A DNA stretch of 23,854 bases from a virus: IMG/VR virus record IMGVR_UViG_3300035698_029499, positions 1-23,854 of that record, one strand, 5' to 3'. The notes under the pieces were generated by a model. That model was not told the DNA's origin and made no database searches. It saw only the letters and a list, made by a program, of their open reading frames with translations. Below, in pieces: positions 5,560-19,971 of the stretch; within the stretch, counting starts at the first letter, position 1; each line of letters begins with the position of its first letter. Both the position numbers and the translations under genes were made by a program.

Positions 5560-6585
5560 TTAAAAACCATTATAATAAAAGTCCATTGCACCACCCAATC
5601 CTGCCTGTCCTTCATATATAGTAGTGGTACGCTGGGTGCTTTGTTGTACAAGAGTACGACGCAATACTAAACGCTCCTGCTTTTTAAACTCAGGCATAAG
5701 CATTTGGACAGTTTCTAGATCCATACGATCTTCTAATACTTTTTTAGCAGCTCCATACGCAATATATTGCCACCATTGTTTCAATTCGGGAACATCTCCC
5801 GCAGCTATAAGCTGTGTAGGCTCCGCATAATATTCAAAGCTTAAGGTGTATGGTTGATCTGGAACTGGCCGAACAGTGAGTGCATTATTGTAATAAAGAA
5901 CTGCTGATGGGCGTGCAGCCGTATAGGTAACATAATGAATATTAATAGGCTGCCCAGTAAGCGTATTACCACTAAAATCAAAAGAATAGGCACCCGTATA
6001 GTAGTCTATCGTATTGGTACCAACTGATACATCACCAATTAAAACACCACTCCCATTATCATATACATTTAAGCCACCTCTTGCCGTATCGAGGCAACTA
6101 ATAGAAACACTATTAGGAAGAAGGAATGGTCCGTTATTAGGCAGAAGGGTAGAAGTACTGAGTCCTATACCACTAATAGTGCCACTGAAGGTTCCCGTGG
6201 TTCCGTTTCCGGTACTAATTTGTGATATTTGCTTGTTTTGAGGATAGATATTATAGAAACCATCTTGAGATTGAGAGTAAAATACTTTATATCCATCCAC
6301 ATACATAGGAGGATTCATCGTAATGAGCGCATTAGAAAGCGTCTCTGTGGTAGGATCGTTAGGATCAACAGTAAGCGTACTGAGATCATACGTATCTTGG
6401 AATGGAGACAGTACAAAATCAAATGTTTTGTGGAGTTTAAAAAGCCTGAGCTCTTGTGGAAGATCATACGCAATAAAGGTATTAATGTACTCATTCAGCG
6501 TAGCATCAGTGAGCTGATTTATTGAGGGAGAGCGAGTTAACTTACGTACTTTATTCTGTATTGTTTGGAGAGTTGATGATGCCAT
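5560..6585 (-). CDS. Head-tail adaptor-like protein
   Basis: The product has 341 residues. The N-terminus (TLQTIQNKVRKLTRSPSINQLTDATLNEYINTF) is a helical opening typical of podovirus adaptor or head-completion proteins. The middle, about residues 115-215, is an inserted Gly/Ser/Thr-rich beta domain. The C-terminus returns to helices: LSFEYYAEPTQL, then QWWQYIAYGAAKKVLEDRMD. The last motif resembles gp4/gp11-type adaptors. The ATG overlaps the TAA of the HNH gene (TAATG), and its GGAGG ribosome-binding site lies inside the 3' end of that HNH gene. This places it between capsid and tail genes, where an adaptor is expected. The family call rests on pattern and gene order. Confidence 0.65.
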   Translation of the reverse strand: MASSTLQTIQNKVRKLTRSPSINQLTDATLNEYINTFIAYDLPQELRLFKLHKTFDFVLSPFQDTYDLSTLTVDPNDPTTETLSNALITMNPPMYVDGYKVFYSQSQDGFYNIYPQNKQISQISTGNGTTGTFSGTISGIGLSTSTLLPNNGPFLLPNSVSISCLDTARGGLNVYDNGSGVLIGDVSVGTNTIDYYTGAYSFDFSGNTLTGQPINIHYVTYTAARPSAVLYYNNALTVRPVPDQPYTLSFEYYAEPTQLIAAGDVPELKQWWQYIAYGAAKKVLEDRMDLETVQMLMPEFKKQERLVLRRTLVQQSTQRTTTIYEGQAGLGGAMDFYYNGF

Positions 6586-7184
6586 TATATATGCCTCCAG
6601 CTACGCTTACTTTTTATTTGATAAACAACAGGCCACGAAACGTTAAACATGTTAGCGATTTCTTTATAATTAATCCCATCTTCAAATAGCTTTCTTATTT
6701 TTCTTACTTCTTTATTGTTAAGTTTCGCACTTGCATGACTCTGGCCCTTAGGATGATTATCACGGCGCCGTAAGTACTTATCATTGGCATTATCTTGATG
6801 AGTTCCTAAGCGTAAGTGATCTGGATTAGTACATGCGCGATTATCACAATTATGTAAAACAATTAAATGACCAGGAATTTCACCTTTATGAATTATATAA
6901 GAAACTCGATGAGATTTTATGAGACCCAACTTCCCTTGGCTCATAATCCCATATCCATCTGAAAGATACCCTTTCCACTGCCAACAGCCATTTTGCTTTA
7001 CTACATGTCTTTTAAAATACTTTTTCCAACGCTCTATTTTTTCAGAAAATGTTGCTTTTTCCCAAAATGACTTTGGACCCTTATGGCTTTTTCGCGAACA
7101 TGATAAACCACAATACTTCCCTATTCTATCTTGTCGCGCAGGTGAATATTGCTTTAAGCATCGCTTACATGTTGCAGTTGCCAT
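6585..7184 (-). CDS. HNH homing endonuclease with zinc ribbon and HTH
   Basis: I chose the ATG at 7184 (199 residues) because AAGGAG lies 5 nt upstream; the frame is open to 7235, but the earlier Met has no such site. Residues 6-29 form a zinc ribbon (C6, C9, C25, C29). The HNH core spans about residues 90-135: SHRVSYIIHKGEIP, then VLHNCDNRACTNPDHLRLGT. This is a nuclease finger with two metal-binding His/Asn clusters. The C-terminal 45 residues are a helix-turn-helix (VRKIRKLFEDGINYKEIANMF) that would give DNA specificity. The gene is not inside an intron. It stands free between a conserved phage gene and the adaptor gene, overlapping the adaptor start. Such genes usually spread by cutting unoccupied alleles. 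Confidence 0.88.
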   Translation of the reverse strand: MATATCKRCLKQYSPARQDRIGKYCGLSCSRKSHKGPKSFWEKATFSEKIERWKKYFKRHVVKQNGCWQWKGYLSDGYGIMSQGKLGLIKSHRVSYIIHKGEIPGHLIVLHNCDNRACTNPDHLRLGTHQDNANDKYLRRRDNHPKGQSHASAKLNNKEVRKIRKLFEDGINYKEIANMFNVSWPVVYQIKSKRSWRHI

Positions 7185-7300
7185 CAGGTCTCCTTTGAAT
7201 ATGTGGGCATCATAGCATGGGGCACATATATTCAAAACATTTTGTATAGCGAAAAATAAGAAGAGAATAACCCTTCAATTAGAGCTATTCCCCTATGCTC

Positions 7301-8833: not shown

Positions 8834-9472
8834 TTACGCTAACGTCATACGTAAATTTATAACCCAGAGATCATTCGTAATACGAGGTACTTCAGCAAAC
8901 TTGTAGCCTGCTGTAGCATAGAGACCTAATGGTCCACCCGCTACTGATGGTGGGCGATAAATAAAGTTAGCACTATAATTGTTTTGTTCTACACATGCAT
9001 AAGCTTCAAGGCCAACACAAAACGCGTTATATACACTTGCATTAAGGTTAGAAGCATTTGCTGATACAGACCCGATAGAGCTCAAGAAGAAACGAAGGTT
9101 TCCAATTGCACCCCATTCAGAATACTGTAATCCAGTTGAAGTTGGATACTGTGCTTTATTAGTAAAACCAGATACGTTATCAAGCTGCCCAATAAGCTCA
9201 GTAGAACCAAGAGCAAAATAAGCATCTCGTACGGGTGCAGTTCCAAACTTATCCTCACCTTCAATCATATGCATCATAGTCTTCGCGTCATTATTACGTA
9301 ATGTACGCACTACACCATCAACATCTGATCGGGTAATTTCAGTAGGAGAATCACCATTAACACCACCTACACAGCTAATTACTGATGCAGTAGAAGCCAA
9401 CATATTACGGGTAAGCTCATCTTCAGATTGACGAAGAGATACACCTAAACGAATTGCTGCTTCATTTAATAC
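8834..9472 (-). CDS. Major capsid protein, exon 2 (N4-gp56 family)
   Basis: This exon encodes the C-terminal 212 residues of the capsid protein, beginning GTA TTA AAT (VLNEAAIRLG). The ATG at 9475 that would make it a separate gene has no ribosome-binding site and lies in the intron end. VLNEAAIRLGVSLRQSEDEL follows directly on the end of exon 1 (VTLQNQDP), reconstructing the NQDPVLNEAA region I associate with N4-gp56-type capsid proteins. The rest contains the HK97-fold-like domain, with FALGSTELIGQL, SEWGAIGNLRFFLS and a C-terminal RITNDLWVINLRMTLA. With exon 1 the protein is 316 residues, a normal length for this family. It forms the head shell. Confidence 0.88.
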   Translation of the reverse strand, partial: VLNEAAIRLGVSLRQSEDELTRNMLASTASVISCVGGVNGDSPTEITRSDVDGVVRTLRNNDAKTMMHMIEGEDKFGTAPVRDAYFALGSTELIGQLDNVSGFTNKAQYPTSTGLQYSEWGAIGNLRFFLSSIGSVSANASNLNASVYNAFCVGLEAYACVEQNNYSANFIYRPPSVAGGPLGLYATAGYKFAEVPRITNDLWVINLRMTLA

Positions 9473-9490
9473 CATTCTGTTACTTGCTGA

Positions 9491-9502
9491 CCTATTGCTA
9501 GG
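9491..9502 (-). other. Intron hairpin with GCAA tetraloop
   Basis: On the minus strand CCTA-GCAA-TAGG forms a 4-bp stem (extendable by a G-U pair) capped by a GNRA loop, 18 nt before the 3' splice site. Such loops dock into group I cores. Which helix it represents is not resolved. Confidence 0.5.
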
Positions 9503-9526
9503 CGGGTAGATCTTCTCAGCCTACCT

Positions 9527-9544
9527 CTCTATGTTTCCATAGAG
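9527..9544 (-). other. Intron hairpin with GAAA tetraloop
   Basis: On the minus strand CTCTATG-GAAA-CATAGAG forms a perfect 7-bp stem with a GNRA loop. It starts 1 nt after the stop codon of the intron endonuclease, so it belongs to the non-coding 3' part expected to hold the ribozyme. It may correspond to P6a or P8. Confidence 0.6.
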
Positions 9545-9545
9545 C

Positions 9546-10586
9546 TCAGAGTTCCGCATCACCATTATTTAATGGCGCCTTCTCGCTAACTACGTTCACG
9601 GTGCCCGGCTTATCGCCTGCTTCCGCCTTGTTGCCTCCAGCACTACCTGGTAAGGGTTCCAAGTCAATCAGAGAAGGTTTATAGACCCCATATTTATTCA
9701 AATCAATTAACTTTCTATAACAATCTTCTCGAAAGTCTTGCTGCTTTTTAGTCTTAAGATATCGACCATACTGAGCAACATGACCCTCGCAAAATTCCAG
9801 TAACATTGACGCCGCTGCTTTTTTTATTCTTAAAAATGGGATTATTTTCTGCAGAAATAAAATAGTATCTCTCTTTTTATAGATTCCAAATCGATAGCAA
9901 AAACCATTGAGAGTCGTATTGGCATTGATCATAAAAAACGATCCTACACCGCAATTATTCATCATATGATATATCCCTGAACTATCAGTCATAGAGAGAG
10001 ATACGACTGGAGAATAGACTCCTGCTCTCGCACCCTTTTCTTTTTTGATAGAAAAAGATCCATCCGTATCCATTATTCCAGCAGCATATGCCCAAAATCG
10101 ATCATCATTACTTACAGATCTAACTCGTCCAAGCGTAATCTTATTTTGAAATGTTTTTGGATTAGTATTAAACATCTTCATTTCTAGCCAGCACTTCTCT
10201 CGAGACATATGTTGATCTTTAGTTATTCTTACGCCACGTGAAAAGGGATTTTCATGTATATACTTATTAAGCAAAGCTACCCTATTTCGCTTTATAACTA
10301 AAAAACTTTCTATATCACTCAAGAATATATGAGAACTTTTCTTCTCAAGCTTCCATGTATGATTAGCCTTTCTGGCCAATCCATCTGATGCTATCCAAGA
10401 CTTTCTGTAAAATATTGATCCACCAAAGGACTCTTTTAGAAAGTTAACGACAGGGCGATAGCTATTAGAGAATTGCACACTGGGATAATACAAGACTGAA
10501 CTCTTATCTATTTTCTTAATAAGAGAAAAGCTCCCATCCCCATCAAGCAATCCACCAATATAAAAACAATCCAACTCGCTTATCAT
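9546..10586 (-). CDS. LAGLIDADG homing endonuclease, intron-encoded
   Basis: The product has 346 residues. GGGAG lies about 4 nt before the ATG, so it can be translated from its own site inside the intron. Two LAGLIDADG motifs mark a single-chain enzyme with two pseudo-symmetric domains: YIGGLLDGDGSF (9-20) and YAAGIMDTDGSF (167-178). The acidic residues D17 and D174 would bind metal. Each motif is followed by a beta-rich DNA-binding half. The last ~33 residues (from GSAGGNKAEAGD) are low-complexity and look like translated intron structure, meaning the coding region runs into the ribozyme. The enzyme would cut intron-less capsid alleles and drive intron homing; some members also help splicing. 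Confidence 0.93.
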   Translation of the reverse strand: MISELDCFYIGGLLDGDGSFSLIKKIDKSSVLYYPSVQFSNSYRPVVNFLKESFGGSIFYRKSWIASDGLARKANHTWKLEKKSSHIFLSDIESFLVIKRNRVALLNKYIHENPFSRGVRITKDQHMSREKCWLEMKMFNTNPKTFQNKITLGRVRSVSNDDRFWAYAAGIMDTDGSFSIKKEKGARAGVYSPVVSLSMTDSSGIYHMMNNCGVGSFFMINANTTLNGFCYRFGIYKKRDTILFLQKIIPFLRIKKAAASMLLEFCEGHVAQYGRYLKTKKQQDFREDCYRKLIDLNKYGVYKPSLIDLEPLPGSAGGNKAEAGDKPGTVNVVSEKAPLNNGDAEL

Positions 10587-10689
10587 AATTCTCCCACATA
10601 AATAGTTATATATAGGAATAATTATATAAGCTGCTTACAGCGTTGTCAATGTACAGTATATTTCAAAGATCGTTATAGAACTAATGGCT

Positions 10690-11001
10690 AGGGTCTTGGT
10701 TTTGCAAGGTTACCTGTTCATGGATTTGGACATATGTTCCATAGAAATCCATTTTCGCATCTATGTCTACCGCCGTAAGTTCTTGTGAAGGCGGAGTGAC
10801 ACCAGATACACCTAGAGGAACTAGAGCACTATTTAAAGCGTTATAACGGCGCATACGAAGCGTAGTACCAGAATTAGCATTCAGCTTCTTTCTCATCGCC
10901 GCAAACTTATGGATAAAATCAGGTGTGGGTACTGCCAGCAACTTATCATCAAATGATTGTTGAACTGGAGCACTTAACACTGATGACGTAGTTATAGCCA
11001 T
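10690..11001 (-). CDS. Major capsid protein, exon 1 (N4-gp56 family)
   Basis: This exon encodes the first 104 residues. AAGGA lies 6 nt before the ATG. The sequence includes a leading Ser/Thr/Val-rich arm, DDKLLAVPTPDFIHKFAAM, LNANSGTTLRMRRYNAL and VDIDAKMDFYGTYVQIHEQ. These fit the N-arm and E-loop opening of N4-gp56-type capsid proteins. Unspliced, the frame would add only Ser-His and stop. Exon length is 312 nt, a whole number of codons, so splicing to 9472 keeps phase. It follows the scaffold gene after a 204-nt gap that contains a terminator-like hairpin. Confidence 0.88.
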
Positions 11002-15241: not shown

Positions 15242-15748
15242 TTATTCTAGAGATACTATCAACGTTATGATGGTCACCGTAGAGGCAATCATCGTACCGC
15301 CAAGACCAAGTAAAGCTACATAGAATTTATACCGCTCAGCTCGTAACTCCTTATCTTTATACTGAAGCTGTAATTGAGCATCGGCCGACTCGAGTTCTTT
15401 TGTTTCAATAGCGTCATCAACAGAATCAGCTATCATTTTCTTCATCAGTTGTAGTCTCACATCCACCTCTTGAGAATCAGAGAGTCGTACCTCTTTCATA
15501 GACCTGATTGCTTGCCACATCTCCTCATCCGGGTACTTACATTCACGCACCCGTGACTTTACTCCTGGCCCGACATGTGTCTTAAACCGTTGGCTATCTT
15601 TACCGAGAAAGAACTGTAAAGCTTTGTAGACATCTTCTTCAGACTGGCTTCCTTGACGAAACCGAATGGTGACTTGGGTATCATTAGATGGAAGCTCCTC
15701 CATTCCATGAATTGGAAGCATTACAAGTAGTAACATGCTTATTCTCAT
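15242..15748 (-). CDS. Secreted, C-terminally membrane-anchored protein of unknown function
   Basis: I chose the ATG at 15748 (168 residues), with AAGGAGG 4 nt upstream; the open frame to 15817 has no such site. Residues 1-16 are a signal peptide (MRISMLLLVMLPIHGM). The middle is soluble and charged, with a likely coiled coil at about 105-135 (ELESADAQLQLQYKDKELR). Residues about 141-167 form one hydrophobic helix (VALLGLGGTMIASTVTIITLIVSL). It would sit outside the inner membrane and be held by its C-terminus. It starts divergently from the plus-strand secreted-protein gene at 15894. The HGME signal ending resembles exported Dependentiae proteins as I remember them. Function unknown; a host-surface or lysis role is possible. 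Confidence 0.65.
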   Translation of the reverse strand: MRISMLLLVMLPIHGMEELPSNDTQVTIRFRQGSQSEEDVYKALQFFLGKDSQRFKTHVGPGVKSRVRECKYPDEEMWQAIRSMKEVRLSDSQEVDVRLQLMKKMIADSVDDAIETKELESADAQLQLQYKDKELRAERYKFYVALLGLGGTMIASTVTIITLIVSLE

Positions 15749-15857
15749 GGGACCTCCTTTGTTACGAACTGATAATACTGTATCAAAAGTAACCATTTTA
15801 AAGCAATTTTTAATCAAAAGCCCTTGATATTACTCCTAAAAAGCGTAACGTGAGTAA

Positions 15858-15892
15858 CGAGTAAGTACTAACATTTAACCATAAAGGAACCG
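15858..15892 (+). repeat. Left copy of two short repeats flanking the plus-strand cassette
   Basis: CGAGTAAGTAC (15858-15868) and ATAAAGGAACCG (15881-15892) both recur at 16829-16849, past the end of the two plus-strand genes, with the words in swapped order. Here the second word contains the ribosome-binding site of the gene at 15894. Confidence 0.6.
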
Positions 15893-15893
15893 C

Positions 15894-16532
15894 ATGAAAC
15901 GTTCTTTGTTTTCTCTTCTCTTATTGTCAGCATTATCACTTAATGGTATGGAAATCGATCATGATTCTGTGCAATCACCTCGACTTGGTAAGGTAGCTCT
16001 TTATCATGGTATCGATGGATTCACAGTACAGGATAATGAAGGATCCCATCTGGTACATTCATATGATGTGCATAAATCATTTCGTGGTAAATCTTCTAAG
16101 GACATTGCTCGCTATGCAAAAGTAGGAGTATTTCTTCTTAAAAAGTATGACAACGGTGAATACCAAGTTGATGAGAGTGGCAGACTCAATGGCGGTGGTC
16201 CTATTTCTGGATCTATTGCATACGGACTAACCAAACTAGTATGTTACGGCGTTGGTGTAGCAGCAGTAGGACAAGCAGCTAATAACCTATCTAATAGTGG
16301 TGTTAGTGGTGCAACGATTGCAATTGGTGCCAATTCTATATCTAATATTGCTTCAACAAATGCTAATGTTGTAGGTGTAGCTATTCTAGGATCCAATAAC
16401 GGACAGAATGCTTTGAATTTAGTGACAGGTACTGCCACTGCAGTAAGCGCTAGTTCAATTGTATCAGGTGGCCTTATAGAAGGACTTGCCTGCAGCATGG
16501 GTGCTCTATTTACTTGGTTACCTTTCCCTTAA
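15894..16532 (+). CDS. Secreted accessory protein, Dependentiae-like
   Basis: The product has 212 residues. AAGGA lies 6 nt before the ATG. Residues 1-19 are a signal peptide ending LNGME. The soluble part (25-100) contains VALYHGIDGFTVQDNEGSH, SFRGKSSKDIARYAKVGVF and YQVDESGRLNGGGP. The C-terminal half (105-212) is Gly/Ala/Ser-rich and hydrophobic, suggesting membrane insertion. I recall proteins with a HGxDGF opening and a GGGP junction before a membrane-like tail from Dependentiae genomes, but no function. It is read against the phage operons and would be expressed independently, as lysogenic-conversion genes often are. A role toward the protist host or in superinfection is speculative. 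Confidence 0.7.
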   Translation: MKRSLFSLLLLSALSLNGMEIDHDSVQSPRLGKVALYHGIDGFTVQDNEGSHLVHSYDVHKSFRGKSSKDIARYAKVGVFLLKKYDNGEYQVDESGRLNGGGPISGSIAYGLTKLVCYGVGVAAVGQAANNLSNSGVSGATIAIGANSISNIASTNANVVGVAILGSNNGQNALNLVTGTATAVSASSIVSGGLIEGLACSMGALFTWLPFP

Positions 16533-16542
16533 TAGGATAACA

Positions 16543-16746
16543 ATGACATTCGTTCAAGCATTTTCCCATACAAGCATGCACGCAATTATATTTATGTTAG
16601 TTATTTACTTAGCAGCGTTTTATATAGCACCACTTACCGGTCAAGTCTCTCCGTTTATACATACTACGGTGCATGAGTTTTTTGGGACGCTTATTGTTTG
16701 GATGTGTGCCATGACTACAGCTACATATATAAGATCTTCTAGATGA
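16543..16746 (+). CDS. Small two-helix membrane protein
   Basis: The product has 67 residues. I used the ATG at 16543, preceded by AGGATAACA; an upstream in-frame ATG lies inside the previous gene. Residues about 13-30 (AIIFMLVIYLAAFYIAPL) and 44-62 (EFFGTLIVWMCAMTTATYI) are membrane helices. It follows the secreted-protein gene by 10 nt and ends before the shared terminator, so the two form one transcript. Two short helices would suit a holin, but no lysis enzyme lies nearby and the sequence matches no holin family I know. Confidence 0.6.
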   Translation: MTFVQAFSHTSMHAIIFMLVIYLAAFYIAPLTGQVSPFIHTTVHEFFGTLIVWMCAMTTATYIRSSR

Positions 16747-16785
16747 GAGATAGAACACTGCTCTATGGAATGTAACAATCCCATA

Positions 16786-16820
16786 GGAAAAAGGAGCCTC
16801 AAGCAGGGGCTCCTTTTTTA
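16786..16820. terminator. Bidirectional terminator between convergent operons
   Basis: AGGAGCC (16792-16798) pairs with GGCTCCT (16808-16814). TTTTTTA follows on the plus strand, and on the minus strand the stem is followed by TTTTTCC. It would end both the plus-strand cassette and the minus-strand SpeD operon. Confidence 0.82.
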
Positions 16821-16828
16821 TTGCAGCG

Positions 16829-16849
16829 ATAAAGGAACCGAGTAAGTAC
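16829..16849 (+). repeat. Right copy of two short repeats flanking the plus-strand cassette
   Basis: ATAAAGGAACCG (16829-16840) runs straight into CGAGTAAGTAC (16839-16849). Both words are also present just before the plus-strand cassette. Here the ribosome-binding-like AAGGA leads into no gene, so this copy looks like a remnant. Confidence 0.6.
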
Positions 16850-16878
16850 CCATTACTGCGGTTTCAACAGTAACATTG

Positions 16879-17301
16879 CTATCGCTTTAAAGCACGTATT
16901 CTTTTGATTTTGCCTCGAAATGCTTGATGGGTAAAGTGCAGTACCGTTAACGGGTTGTATTTTTTGCATGAAAAGATATCGATATAGGCACAGTTAGACT
17001 CATTAGCAAAGTGTGCTGATATATTAGAGGTCTCAATAAGCTGAAACATGGAATAGCCTTCCACCCGTTTATCTTCTCCAAAATGAACGATATGGCATTC
17101 ACCGTAACGCTTCATACCGATAAGATCACACAGAGCAATGACATATGCTTCAATATGGTTCTTATCACGAATAAGCTCAGGATTACAATCTTCGAGATCT
17201 ATTATGGTGTGCCATCCCCACGGTTGACTAGATACAGTAGGCAAAGGTTCTTTAGCAGTAACGGGAAAAAAAAGCAGAGCGAGTAGCGGTAATAGCTTCA
17301 T
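16879..17301 (-). CDS. S-adenosylmethionine decarboxylase-family protein with signal peptide
   Basis: The product has 140 residues. AAGGA lies 5 nt before the ATG. Residues 1-16 are a signal peptide with a VTA cleavage site. The mature part follows the SpeD family: WGWHTIIDLEDCNPELIRD, then KRYGECHIVHFGED, GYSMFQLIET and AYIDIFSCKKY. Ser92, His97 and Cys112 have the same spacing as Ser63, His68 and Cys83 of bacterial AdoMet decarboxylase, so self-cleavage to a pyruvoyl enzyme is plausible. The residue before Ser92 is Thr rather than the usual Glu. Some SpeD homologues are known to decarboxylate ornithine or arginine instead, which could apply here. Export of such an enzyme is odd because AdoMet is cytoplasmic. 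It lies 15 nt after a second SpeD homologue. Confidence 0.82.
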   Translation of the reverse strand: MKLLPLLALLFFPVTAKEPLPTVSSQPWGWHTIIDLEDCNPELIRDKNHIEAYVIALCDLIGMKRYGECHIVHFGEDKRVEGYSMFQLIETSNISAHFANESNCAYIDIFSCKKYNPLTVLHFTHQAFRGKIKRIRALKR

Positions 17302-17316
17302 CGTGGTCCTTTTTTA

Positions 17317-17727
17317 TTAGTTTCTATCGATTATCTTTCTCTCAATTATCTTAGGCTGTAATATCTCTACCATAATTTCTTCAAACTTCTTCCAGTCCGT
17401 ACTCTCACCGCAGGTAAACAGATCAACAAAGACAGACTTATGTTCGGGATAGGTATGTATAGATGCATGGGATTCCATAAGAATAGCGGTACCAGTCATA
17501 GCAGTCTCACCGAACGGGTGCATATAGAAATGAAGCATAGTAGCACCTGATTGTTCTATGCCAATAAGAAAATAACAGAAGAGCCTATGTATATTTTCTA
17601 AGTCTGGAGACTCACATTTCTTGTATGAAGCAATATAATGGGTGCCCTTAAAATCAAATCCACCTGATAGAAAGGACACCCACACTACTAAGAAGGTCAG
17701 ATACGAAAGTTTACTTCTTCTTCTCAT
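17317..17727 (-). CDS. speD: S-adenosylmethionine decarboxylase-family protein with N-terminal hydrophobic anchor
   Basis: The product has 136 residues. The start overlaps the upstream small gene by 17 nt, with only an A-rich weak ribosome-binding site. Residues 8-20 (SYLTFLVVWVSFL) behind Arg/Lys form a signal anchor or uncleaved signal. The rest is SpeD-like: GTHYIASYKKC, GATMLHFYMHPFGE, then ILMESHASIHTYPE and VFVDLFTCGES. Ser86 (in the E-S-H cleavage site), His91 and Cys106 keep exactly the Ser63/His68/Cys83 spacing, so pyruvoyl formation looks intact. The canonical reaction is AdoMet decarboxylation for spermidine synthesis; polyamines neutralise packaged phage DNA. No spermidine synthase lies in the window. 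The substrate is uncertain because some homologues have changed substrate. Confidence 0.85.
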   Translation of the reverse strand: MRRRSKLSYLTFLVVWVSFLSGGFDFKGTHYIASYKKCESPDLENIHRLFCYFLIGIEQSGATMLHFYMHPFGETAMTGTAILMESHASIHTYPEHKSVFVDLFTCGESTDWKKFEEIMVEILQPKIIERKIIDRN

Positions 17728-18095: not shown

Positions 18096-19490
18096 CTAAA
18101 AGTGGTTGGACTTACGGAATGGTGCAGGTAAATCTTGATGGTCTCCATACATGGAAGCATAGTAGCGCCTGTCTAACTCTTCTTTAGTTGTGTTGTTGGT
18201 TTTTATTTGGGGCATTCCCACACATAGATATCTTAAAGCGTCACAATAATGAGAATTATGATCGTGAAGAGGGCGCAGTTTATATTTTTTAAGCTTGCTG
18301 TCCCATTCCTTTCGATAATCTCGTATAGCTGCAATAAGCTTTTTACACTTTTCCCTATCTATCCATATGCGAGGTAACGTAGTCCTAACAGTTTCTATAC
18401 CATCAATGACAGACATATTTGGGGCTAGATTAAACTTAAGTCCCATTTCAGAAGCTTTATCCCACCGAGAAAGGCCACCAGAACTATAATCTCGTACTCT
18501 TATATCATGAGGAGCAATATGTTTTCCGTAGGTATATTCTTTATTTAATACCACATGAATATAATGCTCTAATCCTACTGAATCATTCGCATATACATCA
18601 ATAATTTTTATAGCATTACCTATAACCTGAAAGAACAGTATTATTGTAGAATCAGACATTCCCAAATCCCAGGCAGTGTGAACCTTAAATGACGGTTCCC
18701 ATGGAATAGGGCCAATATGGCTTTCAAGCTCCATACGATTGAGATATGAGCTATAATATGATCCCTGAGCACCAATAGAGAAGTCGCAAAAATACTCCTG
18801 CCTTATTTTATCAGGGCTCATAATGCCCTCTCGTTCTTCCTTTTCTATAAGATCAAGAGAGACTACATCCGTATCTTCCACCGTAAGAAGGTCATCAAAC
18901 CAATCATCTGAATTTTTAGCTACTTCGTAGAGGTGATGAAAATGGTTCTCGCCAAACGGGGTTGAAATAAAAACAGCCCACCCGTCATTTGCTACCAAAA
19001 TAGGCCTCAATGTAGGGTATACCGCTTCATGCTGATATGCGTATTCGCTGAATACGATACCCTTAGGATTCGACCCACGAAGGGTATCGTAAGAATCTGA
19101 CCCAAGAAAATAAATACGTGAGTTATTTTTGAAAGTAATTTTCATTTCTTGGATATTAATTGCCTGGATAAGCTGACTCGGAATAAAATCTAGAAACTTC
19201 TTCCCAGTCATGGTCATCCCTTCAAACAAAACGAGACGAGCTTGTCTGTAGGTAGGAAGAATATAATAATAAGCCCCCACTGTTCTCAAGGCCATTCGAA
19301 TCATTAAGTTAAAACAAGCCACATCTTTTCCAGCGCGCCTGTGCCAAGCGAGAACAGCTCTTTTGATACCTTTATTCTCAATCGCCTCAAACAAGGGAAC
19401 CTGGTAAGGCCGAGCTACAAATCGATTCAAGAGCACCTTAGCATCAAATCCTATTTTTTCTCTCACTCCATCCCCTATGTATAACACCAT
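18096..19490 (-). CDS. terL: Terminase large subunit
   Basis: The product has 464 residues. The ATPase has an adenine-binding RPYQ (27-30), Walker A HRRAGKD (50-56), Walker B IVFSE (145-149) and an STPFG coupling motif (176-180). The nuclease domain has HTAWDLG with Asp275, IDVY with Asp299, PHD with Asp329, and HYCDALRY with Asp417. It cuts concatemers and pumps DNA through the portal. The ATG at 19490 has no ribosome-binding site and lies 47 nt inside the HNH gene, so translation probably depends on coupling. About the first 16 residues share DNA with the HNH 3' end, and homologous sequence seems to begin only near residue 20. An alternative GTG start is at 19439. Confidence 0.93.
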   Translation of the reverse strand: MVLYIGDGVREKIGFDAKVLLNRFVARPYQVPLFEAIENKGIKRAVLAWHRRAGKDVACFNLMIRMALRTVGAYYYILPTYRQARLVLFEGMTMTGKKFLDFIPSQLIQAINIQEMKITFKNNSRIYFLGSDSYDTLRGSNPKGIVFSEYAYQHEAVYPTLRPILVANDGWAVFISTPFGENHFHHLYEVAKNSDDWFDDLLTVEDTDVVSLDLIEKEEREGIMSPDKIRQEYFCDFSIGAQGSYYSSYLNRMELESHIGPIPWEPSFKVHTAWDLGMSDSTIILFFQVIGNAIKIIDVYANDSVGLEHYIHVVLNKEYTYGKHIAPHDIRVRDYSSGGLSRWDKASEMGLKFNLAPNMSVIDGIETVRTTLPRIWIDREKCKKLIAAIRDYRKEWDSKLKKYKLRPLHDHNSHYCDALRYLCVGMPQIKTNNTTKEELDRRYYASMYGDHQDLPAPFRKSNHF

Positions 19491-19971
19491 GAGATCTATC
19501 TTTACATGATCTGCATTGGGTAGTTCTACCCCTTCTTAGCTCTCCACCACTTATAACTTTTTCAACTCCACATACACACAGACAGGTATAATATCTATGA
19601 CCTGGCTTATAGTTTATTTTTTCTACTACCGTCCATGAACCAAATTTTTTACACGGCATAGTATCTAATAAATCACCCTTATTAGATGGATTATTTTCTT
19701 TAGAGGTAACCCATCTACAATTTTCAGGAGAATAGTTTCCATTGTTATCAATTCTATCTATTTGAAGCCCATCCGGCCTTTCTCCCATATCTTCATAAAA
19801 GTAAATAAAGTTTTTCCATCTATCACAGACTTTTATGCCACGACCACCGTAATATTTATACGTATTAACGTTTTCATTATTACACCTACTCTTTATTCCT
19901 ATCCAAATCTTATAGGTTGGAGATCCTTCCATTCCATGCCGCCATGAATGATTTTCTTTCCCTAATTTCAT
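19444..19971 (-). CDS. HNH homing endonuclease with zinc ribbon
   Basis: The product has 175 residues and starts 2 nt after the terS stop. Residues about 17-60 contain the TYKIWIGIKSRCNN and YYGGRGIKVCDRWKNF motifs, which precede the nuclease finger in this family. Residues about 70-90 read LQIDRIDNNGNYSPENCRW, the HNH-like core with Asp at the first position. The C-terminus holds a Cys-based ribbon (CLCVCG, then CRSC). It is not in an intron and lies between terS and terL, its end overlapping the terL start by 47 nt. Free-standing HNH genes beside terminase genes are common in phages, where they spread by cutting lineages lacking them. Confidence 0.88.
   Translation of the reverse strand: MKLGKENHSWRHGMEGSPTYKIWIGIKSRCNNENVNTYKYYGGRGIKVCDRWKNFIYFYEDMGERPDGLQIDRIDNNGNYSPENCRWVTSKENNPSNKGDLLDTMPCKKFGSWTVVEKINYKPGHRYYTCLCVCGVEKVISGGELRRGRTTQCRSCKDRSHGVIHRGWSERKNRI

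Follow-up and report, generated by a model that had tools for sequence, protein, structure and literature searches.

Group I introns interrupt protein genes in several phages. The mycobacteriophage LittleE carries a capsid intron with a LAGLIDADG open reading frame (ORF), and its splicing was demonstrated by RT-PCR and N-terminal sequencing; the lactococcal phage Tuc2009 is also cited as a precedent for a capsid intron (PMC3706429). Much smaller elements have been described in Phialophora, whose SSU rRNA contains mini-introns of 63-75 nt with P1, P7, P10 and a helix between the intron and the 3' exon. One of these, PaSSU (67 nt), was spliced in vitro with ~300 nt of flanking sequence (PMC3160393). 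In the open literature, with few subscription papers and preprints, we found nothing closer than the Phialophora introns when looking for introns in N4-gp56 genes or for group I introns without a core.

Here we describe an insert in the N4-gp56 major capsid gene of an uncultivated phage. The analysed stretch of DNA, hereafter the window, is a complete IMG/VR virus record of 23,854 bases. From sequence comparison, the insert is almost certainly a mobile group I intron that lies after codon 104 and is spliced to give one mRNA for a 316-residue capsid protein. It shares with the LittleE intron a group I-type structure, a position in a major capsid gene, a U at the end of the exon, a terminal G, a LAGLIDADG ORF and a presence in only some relatives. 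LittleE differs in being an actinobacterial siphophage with an HK97-type capsid, in having the ORF on the opposite strand, in its proven splicing, and in having one intron, whereas the relatives of the window are interrupted at ~25 alternative sites (PMC3706429). The introns of T4 td, nrdB and nrdD, Twort, SPO1 and Bastillevirinae resemble the window intron in core topology, the U.G pair of P1 and the terminal G, and also in carrying an endonuclease ORF and interrupting a gene for a conserved phage protein (PMC3984707, PMC11878797). Unlike them, the window intron is negative for the Rfam model RF00028, displays no P7.1/P7.2, resides in an N4-gp56 capsid gene, and holds its ORF within P1, upstream of the guide. 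The preliminary description of this DNA regarded a capsid gene as a less usual location for a phage intron, which is fair, but LittleE and Tuc2009 are precedents (PMC3706429) and the window intron adds to a known kind.

The interrupted capsid gene

The capsid gene is found as two minus-strand ORFs, 11001-10681 and 9475-8834, and is divided as follows.

11001-10690, minus strand: exon 1 of the N4-gp56 major capsid gene, codons 1-104, 3' end ...GAC CCT
10689-9473, minus strand: insert between the capsid exons, 1217 nt, 5' AGCC, 3' GAATG, terminal G at 9473
9472-8834, minus strand: exon 2 of the major capsid gene, codons 105-316 plus stop (212 codons)

Joining 10690 to 9472 produces a single 316-residue frame that aligns end to end with ~50 uninterrupted relatives. 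The same junction was recovered by spliced profile-to-DNA alignment using a profile of intact relatives; the aligner prefers T before and G after inserts, and the point is fixed equally by the reading frame and the relatives. The junction cannot slide, since exon 1 ends in T and the insert in G, while the insert starts with A and exon 2 with G. The joined protein scores 132 bits against NCBIfam TIGR04387 (cut-off 60) over model positions 1-320, and the fragments taken separately score 45 and 71 bits. The exon and insert coordinates, the 10690/9472 junction and its inability to slide had all been given in the preliminary description and proved correct, and the alignment with intron-less N4-gp56 capsids that it proposed is provided by the ~50 uninterrupted relatives. 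An intein is ruled out by an in-frame TAG at 10683-10681, following exon 1.

Neighbouring genes in the window encode a P22-like portal, tail proteins, the terminase large subunit and a DnaB-type helicase. At least 465 IMG/VR stretches encode a relative of the capsid protein, and no close capsid or portal was found among the isolates in the phage collection. Two contigs with capsid relatives, L323 (JANQJL010000105.1) and L325 (PLSG01000101.1), have been binned as Simkaniaceae and Parachlamydiaceae, respectively. That two of the four matching contigs are binned with Chlamydiota is a weak hint of chlamydial hosts, bins being poor evidence. Between portal and terminase, at 15242-17727 of the window, are four ORFs with signal-peptide-like starts that are possibly host-derived; three of the four have no match in the related loci.

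The group I core

By covariation, P1, P10 and its terminal G, the insert is identified in comparative analysis as a group I intron, and the preliminary description's reading of an intron with a LAGLIDADG endonuclease in the major capsid gene is supported. The core maps as follows.

9695-9473, minus strand: guide and core, P3-P4-P5-P6-P7-P3'-P8-P7'-P9-P9.1-P9.2, 184 bits with covariance model R1
9677-9671, minus strand: 5' strand of P3, CCUUCUC, partner P3' GAGAAGG at 9584-9578
9591-9588, minus strand: 5' strand of P7, AGUU, partner AACU at 9553-9550, the guanosine-site helix

P3 and P7 form the pseudoknot that defines group I introns, and P1, P3, P4, P6, P7, P9, P9.1 and P10 can all be formed by the window sequence. 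The topology was written by hand from the window sequence, and pairs were then counted over an alignment of 14 complete related cores from four insertion points, the window included. Consensus pairing was seen in 89.2% of cells, against 68.8% with the 3' letters shuffled and at most 44.4% when slid by 1-3 columns; drawing the structure from one member favours it over the slid versions, and the double changes are independent of that. Both sides had changed in 40 of the 51 base pairs. Pairing was retained in 98% of cells for P3 and in 100% for P4, P6 and P7, with double changes in every one of these helices, and the changes in P7 include C-G to G-C and A-U to U-A swaps. No P7.1/P7.2 was seen in the alignment and the R element reads AACGACUA, features that may point to an IB-like subgroup.

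Model R1, built from the 14 cores, gave 76 matches across 87 related loci. The core is its sole real match within the window, and the score of 184 bits is not independent, as the window itself contributed to the model. A search of the window intron with RF00028, suggested in the preliminary description, gave no match even at E up to 5, and Rfam scans of the window and the related loci tested, run at the gathering score and with E as high as 10, likewise gave no group I match. We read this miss as a false negative because the comparative structure reveals a group I core; RF00028 is a detection model and not a defining feature of group I introns.

The exons would be brought together by two further helices.

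9689-9683, minus strand: internal guide GGGGUCU, pairing with AGACCCU of exon 1 (10696-10690) to form P1
9694-9690, minus strand: P10 strand AAUAU, pairing with GUAUU of exon 2 (9472-9468), 5 bp

P1 places a U.G pair at the 5' splice site, as it does at nearly all mapped sites in relatives, and it co-varies: GATCCT in the exon accompanies GGGATC in the guide in L047 and L221, and GACCCT accompanies GGGGTC elsewhere. P10 has a mean length of 3.49 bp over 99 full introns, that of the window among them, and of 0.85 bp in mismatched controls.

Distribution of the introns among relatives

At the codon-104 boundary, where ~50 relatives are uninterrupted, an insert is present in 26 other loci. The empty site reads GATCCN or GACCCN followed by GTN in nearly all intact relatives. 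The shortest insert has 219 nt and no ORF, and the longest has 1421 nt; most finish with a common motif, AAGTAACAG(A)nTG, or with something close to it. GACCCT occupies codons 103-104 in 24 of the 26 genes with the intron, compared with 6 of the 48 intact genes, an enrichment as expected if P1 requires this exon sequence or if the flank is carried along during homing. On a 90-row capsid tree, the 25 occurrences of the intron need 20 changes, an approximate figure as the tree is quick and its deep support weak. Locus L041 has no insert, and L247, whose capsid is nearly identical, has four. This patchy presence among closely related genes is in keeping with a mobile element and not with a conserved switch, leaving without support the earlier proposal that splicing sets the timing of capsid production.

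Altogether, 63 interrupted relatives were annotated, with inserts down to 22 nt allowed in the spliced alignment, and these reveal ~25 insertion points in the capsid gene, which in a single locus can hold as many as four full introns (L034, L211, L301). The bias of the aligner towards T/G insert ends applies here too, and P1, which is present at nearly every insertion point, served as a further check. Predicted short inserts without P1 in L211 (119.0) and L249 (112.2), and weak calls in L221 (216.2) and L314 (98.2), were treated as artefacts or unsure.

The insert could instead be a free-standing homing endonuclease gene that has split the capsid gene into two parts, which are translated separately and co-assemble with no splicing. 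Such an arrangement is reportedly found in the split phage enzyme Aeh1 NrdA, and here both fragments start in frame (11001 and 9475), the in-frame ATG at 9475 immediately before exon 2 making separate translation conceivable; the RF00028 result also fits it. However, no clear ribosome-binding site precedes 9475, many of the ~25 insertion points in relatives would yield exons much too short to stand as separate chains, and an intron-free split does not explain an insert with group I ends, P1, P10 and a covarying catalytic core. We consider this explanation highly improbable and retain that of a spliced group I intron.

Other genes of the phage group appear to be interrupted as well. In L212 (10006-7703, minus strand) the gene for the terminase large subunit is broken near residue 53 by ~1.1 kb, suggesting that introns are not confined to capsid genes. 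The window has two further endonuclease-like ORFs on the minus strand, an HNH ORF (PF13392) at 6585-7235 before a tail gene and a homing-endonuclease-like ORF at 19444-19971 before the terminase large subunit. Neither was found to have a group I core nearby, and both are probably free-standing.

The intron-encoded endonuclease

10586-9546, minus strand: LAGLIDADG homing endonuclease ORF, 346 codons, within the intron
10649-10621, minus strand: promoter-like TTGACA-17-TATAAT, a 12/12 sigma-70-type match, by consensus only

The ORF has the two motifs LLDGDGSF and IMDTDGSF with both catalytic aspartates, D15 and D173, invariant, and matches Pfam PF00961 above the cut-off. GGGAG lies five bases ahead of the ATG, in agreement with the earlier description of a two-motif gene with its own ribosome-binding site. 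The AlphaFold model has a mean pLDDT of 76.9 and is mostly confident over residues 1-298, which are predicted to form two alpha-beta-beta-alpha-beta-beta-alpha domains; Foldseek retrieved I-CreI-derived meganucleases, I-MsoI and I-OnuI (E 1e-15 to 1e-11). The product is thus predicted to have the LAGLIDADG endonuclease fold and would be expected to cut DNA. Like I-CreI, I-MsoI and I-OnuI, it has two copies of the fold (predicted) and both acidic motifs; it differs from them in its 12-18% identity to solved structures and in a disordered tail coded in the core. This tail, residues 299-346 (pLDDT ~23-33), corresponds to the last 48 codons. A scan with the endonuclease protein returned seven loci, all of which hold the ORF or a remnant of it in the capsid gene at codon 104.

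Since the guide is located 3' of the ORF body, the ORF occupies the loop of P1. In codon-104 relatives, the guide, P3 and P4 also encode a conserved protein end, NKYGVYKPSLIDLE; the window ORF reads on through P6, P7, P3' and P8 and stops directly after P7'. Endonuclease ORFs overlapping the core are known from other group I introns (PMC3984707). That the ORF runs through the core, and that P8 and the P5 extension are longer in the window than in most relatives, might indicate a degenerate intron, formerly mobile and now a poor splicer, on the contig of a defective phage. Against this, the window sequence can form every one of P1, P3, P4, P6, P7, P9, P9.1 and P10, the reading frames of the endonuclease and of the two exons are open, and the overlap is of similar length in L077, L083 and L085, which makes degeneration extremely improbable.

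The promoter-like site lies within the intron, ~35 nt upstream of the endonuclease start, and its match to the consensus suggests that the endonuclease may be expressed separately from the capsid transcript. No equally good promoter was found in related introns. A motif, (G/T)TCTTTGA(A/C)AT, occurs near the 5' end of the ORF-bearing introns of L022, L031, L059, L084 and L151 and at 10670-10650 of the window, and is possibly a promoter or an RNA element.

We propose that the last seven bases of exon 1 would pair with the guide to form P1, that the P3-P8/P7 core would bind guanosine, and that exon 1 would be cleaved after U10690. P10 would then align exon 2 and, with G9473 in the guanosine site, the exons would be joined into a single mRNA for the 316-residue capsid protein. 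The endonuclease encoded in the P1 loop, probably produced from its own promoter, would cleave capsid genes that lack the intron, at the point where the exons meet, and repair would copy the intron in. As the ORF crosses the guide, P3, P4, P6 and P7, its full translation should unfold the ribozyme, and on each transcript endonuclease synthesis and capsid splicing should compete.

Putative micro-introns at codon 88 in relatives

A second kind of insert, of 28-53 nt, follows codon 88 in 24 loci, among them L022 (974-1003), L027, L031, L032, L034, L098 and L207. All 24 meet a stop on read-through and end in G. The preceding codon is GGT in every case, compared with 10 of 48 intact genes, in which GGA is commonest. 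Each has an exon-complementary guide (ACGGU with GCCGU, or GCUGU in L241), and in all 24 the three bases ahead of the guide pair with codon 89 as P10, the two changing together (ACC/GGU 14, ACU/AGU 5, ACA/UGU 3, ACG/CGU 2). These inserts are too small to hold a catalytic core. A full intron comes next, 26-86 nt downstream, in all 23 loci where the following insert is visible; it lies after residue/phase 96.2, 104.2 or 116.2, and in one locus after 104.0, and contains an R1 core. The codon-104 site is the partner in one relative, L221; the window has only the full codon-104 intron.

In its second half, every micro-insert can pair with exon sequence lying immediately before the splice site of the next intron. 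This docking helix ends 7-9 nt before the splice site in 20 of 23 cases, and is better than shuffles (p<0.05) in 20 of 24 loci; the four that are not individually significant have a bulged (L065, L078, L247) or short (L090) helix. Its score is 21.0 with the insert's own exon and 12.1 when exons from another partner class are used, and the docking target switches along with the partner. In local folding of eight examples, the helix directly abuts the P1 of the partner, and in the minimum-energy folds of L024 and L027 the P1 hairpin of the micro-intron itself gives way to other pairing.

Judging by these pairings, we think it fairly probable that the next full intron supplies the ribozyme that excises the codon-88 micro-introns, which would be addressed to it by the exon helix beside its P1. 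Homing could transfer a micro-intron together with its partner and so account for their linkage, but it leaves the partner-specific docking helix unexplained. Translational bypass at codon 88 was rejected, as take-off and landing codons do not match and P10, the terminal G and the link to the next intron would be unexplained. Skipping of exon 89-96 was also rejected, as coding constraint is kept there (385, 162 and 1137 pairwise differences at codon positions 1, 2 and 3). Locus L289 has a complete 217-nt intron at codon 88 (181 bits). Excision by the neighbouring ribozyme has as its simplest reading that the micro-introns are full introns whose core was lost since that of the neighbour could serve both. 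They share P1, P10, an intron/3'-exon helix and the lack of a standard core with the Phialophora mini-introns (PMC3160393), and differ in their length of 28-53 nt, their location in phage protein genes, their terminal G, and the position of the exon helix, which abuts P1 of a full group I intron further downstream.

Implications

Few introns have been known from phage capsid genes, and the window intron is a clear further case that Rfam does not see. It suggests that capsid genes recorded as 'missing' or 'split' may in part reflect mis-annotated contigs. With ~25 sites, many gains or losses, and near-identical capsid proteins bearing from zero to four inserts, the relatives offer a natural setting in which to study intron invasion. 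We conclude that the window intron is genuine and belongs to a known kind, and that the micro-introns of its relatives are what merits an experiment. If our reading of them is true, they would count as some of the smallest introns of group I type, and one intron would depend on the core of another, which would bear on the evolution of dependent introns and of shared splicing machinery.
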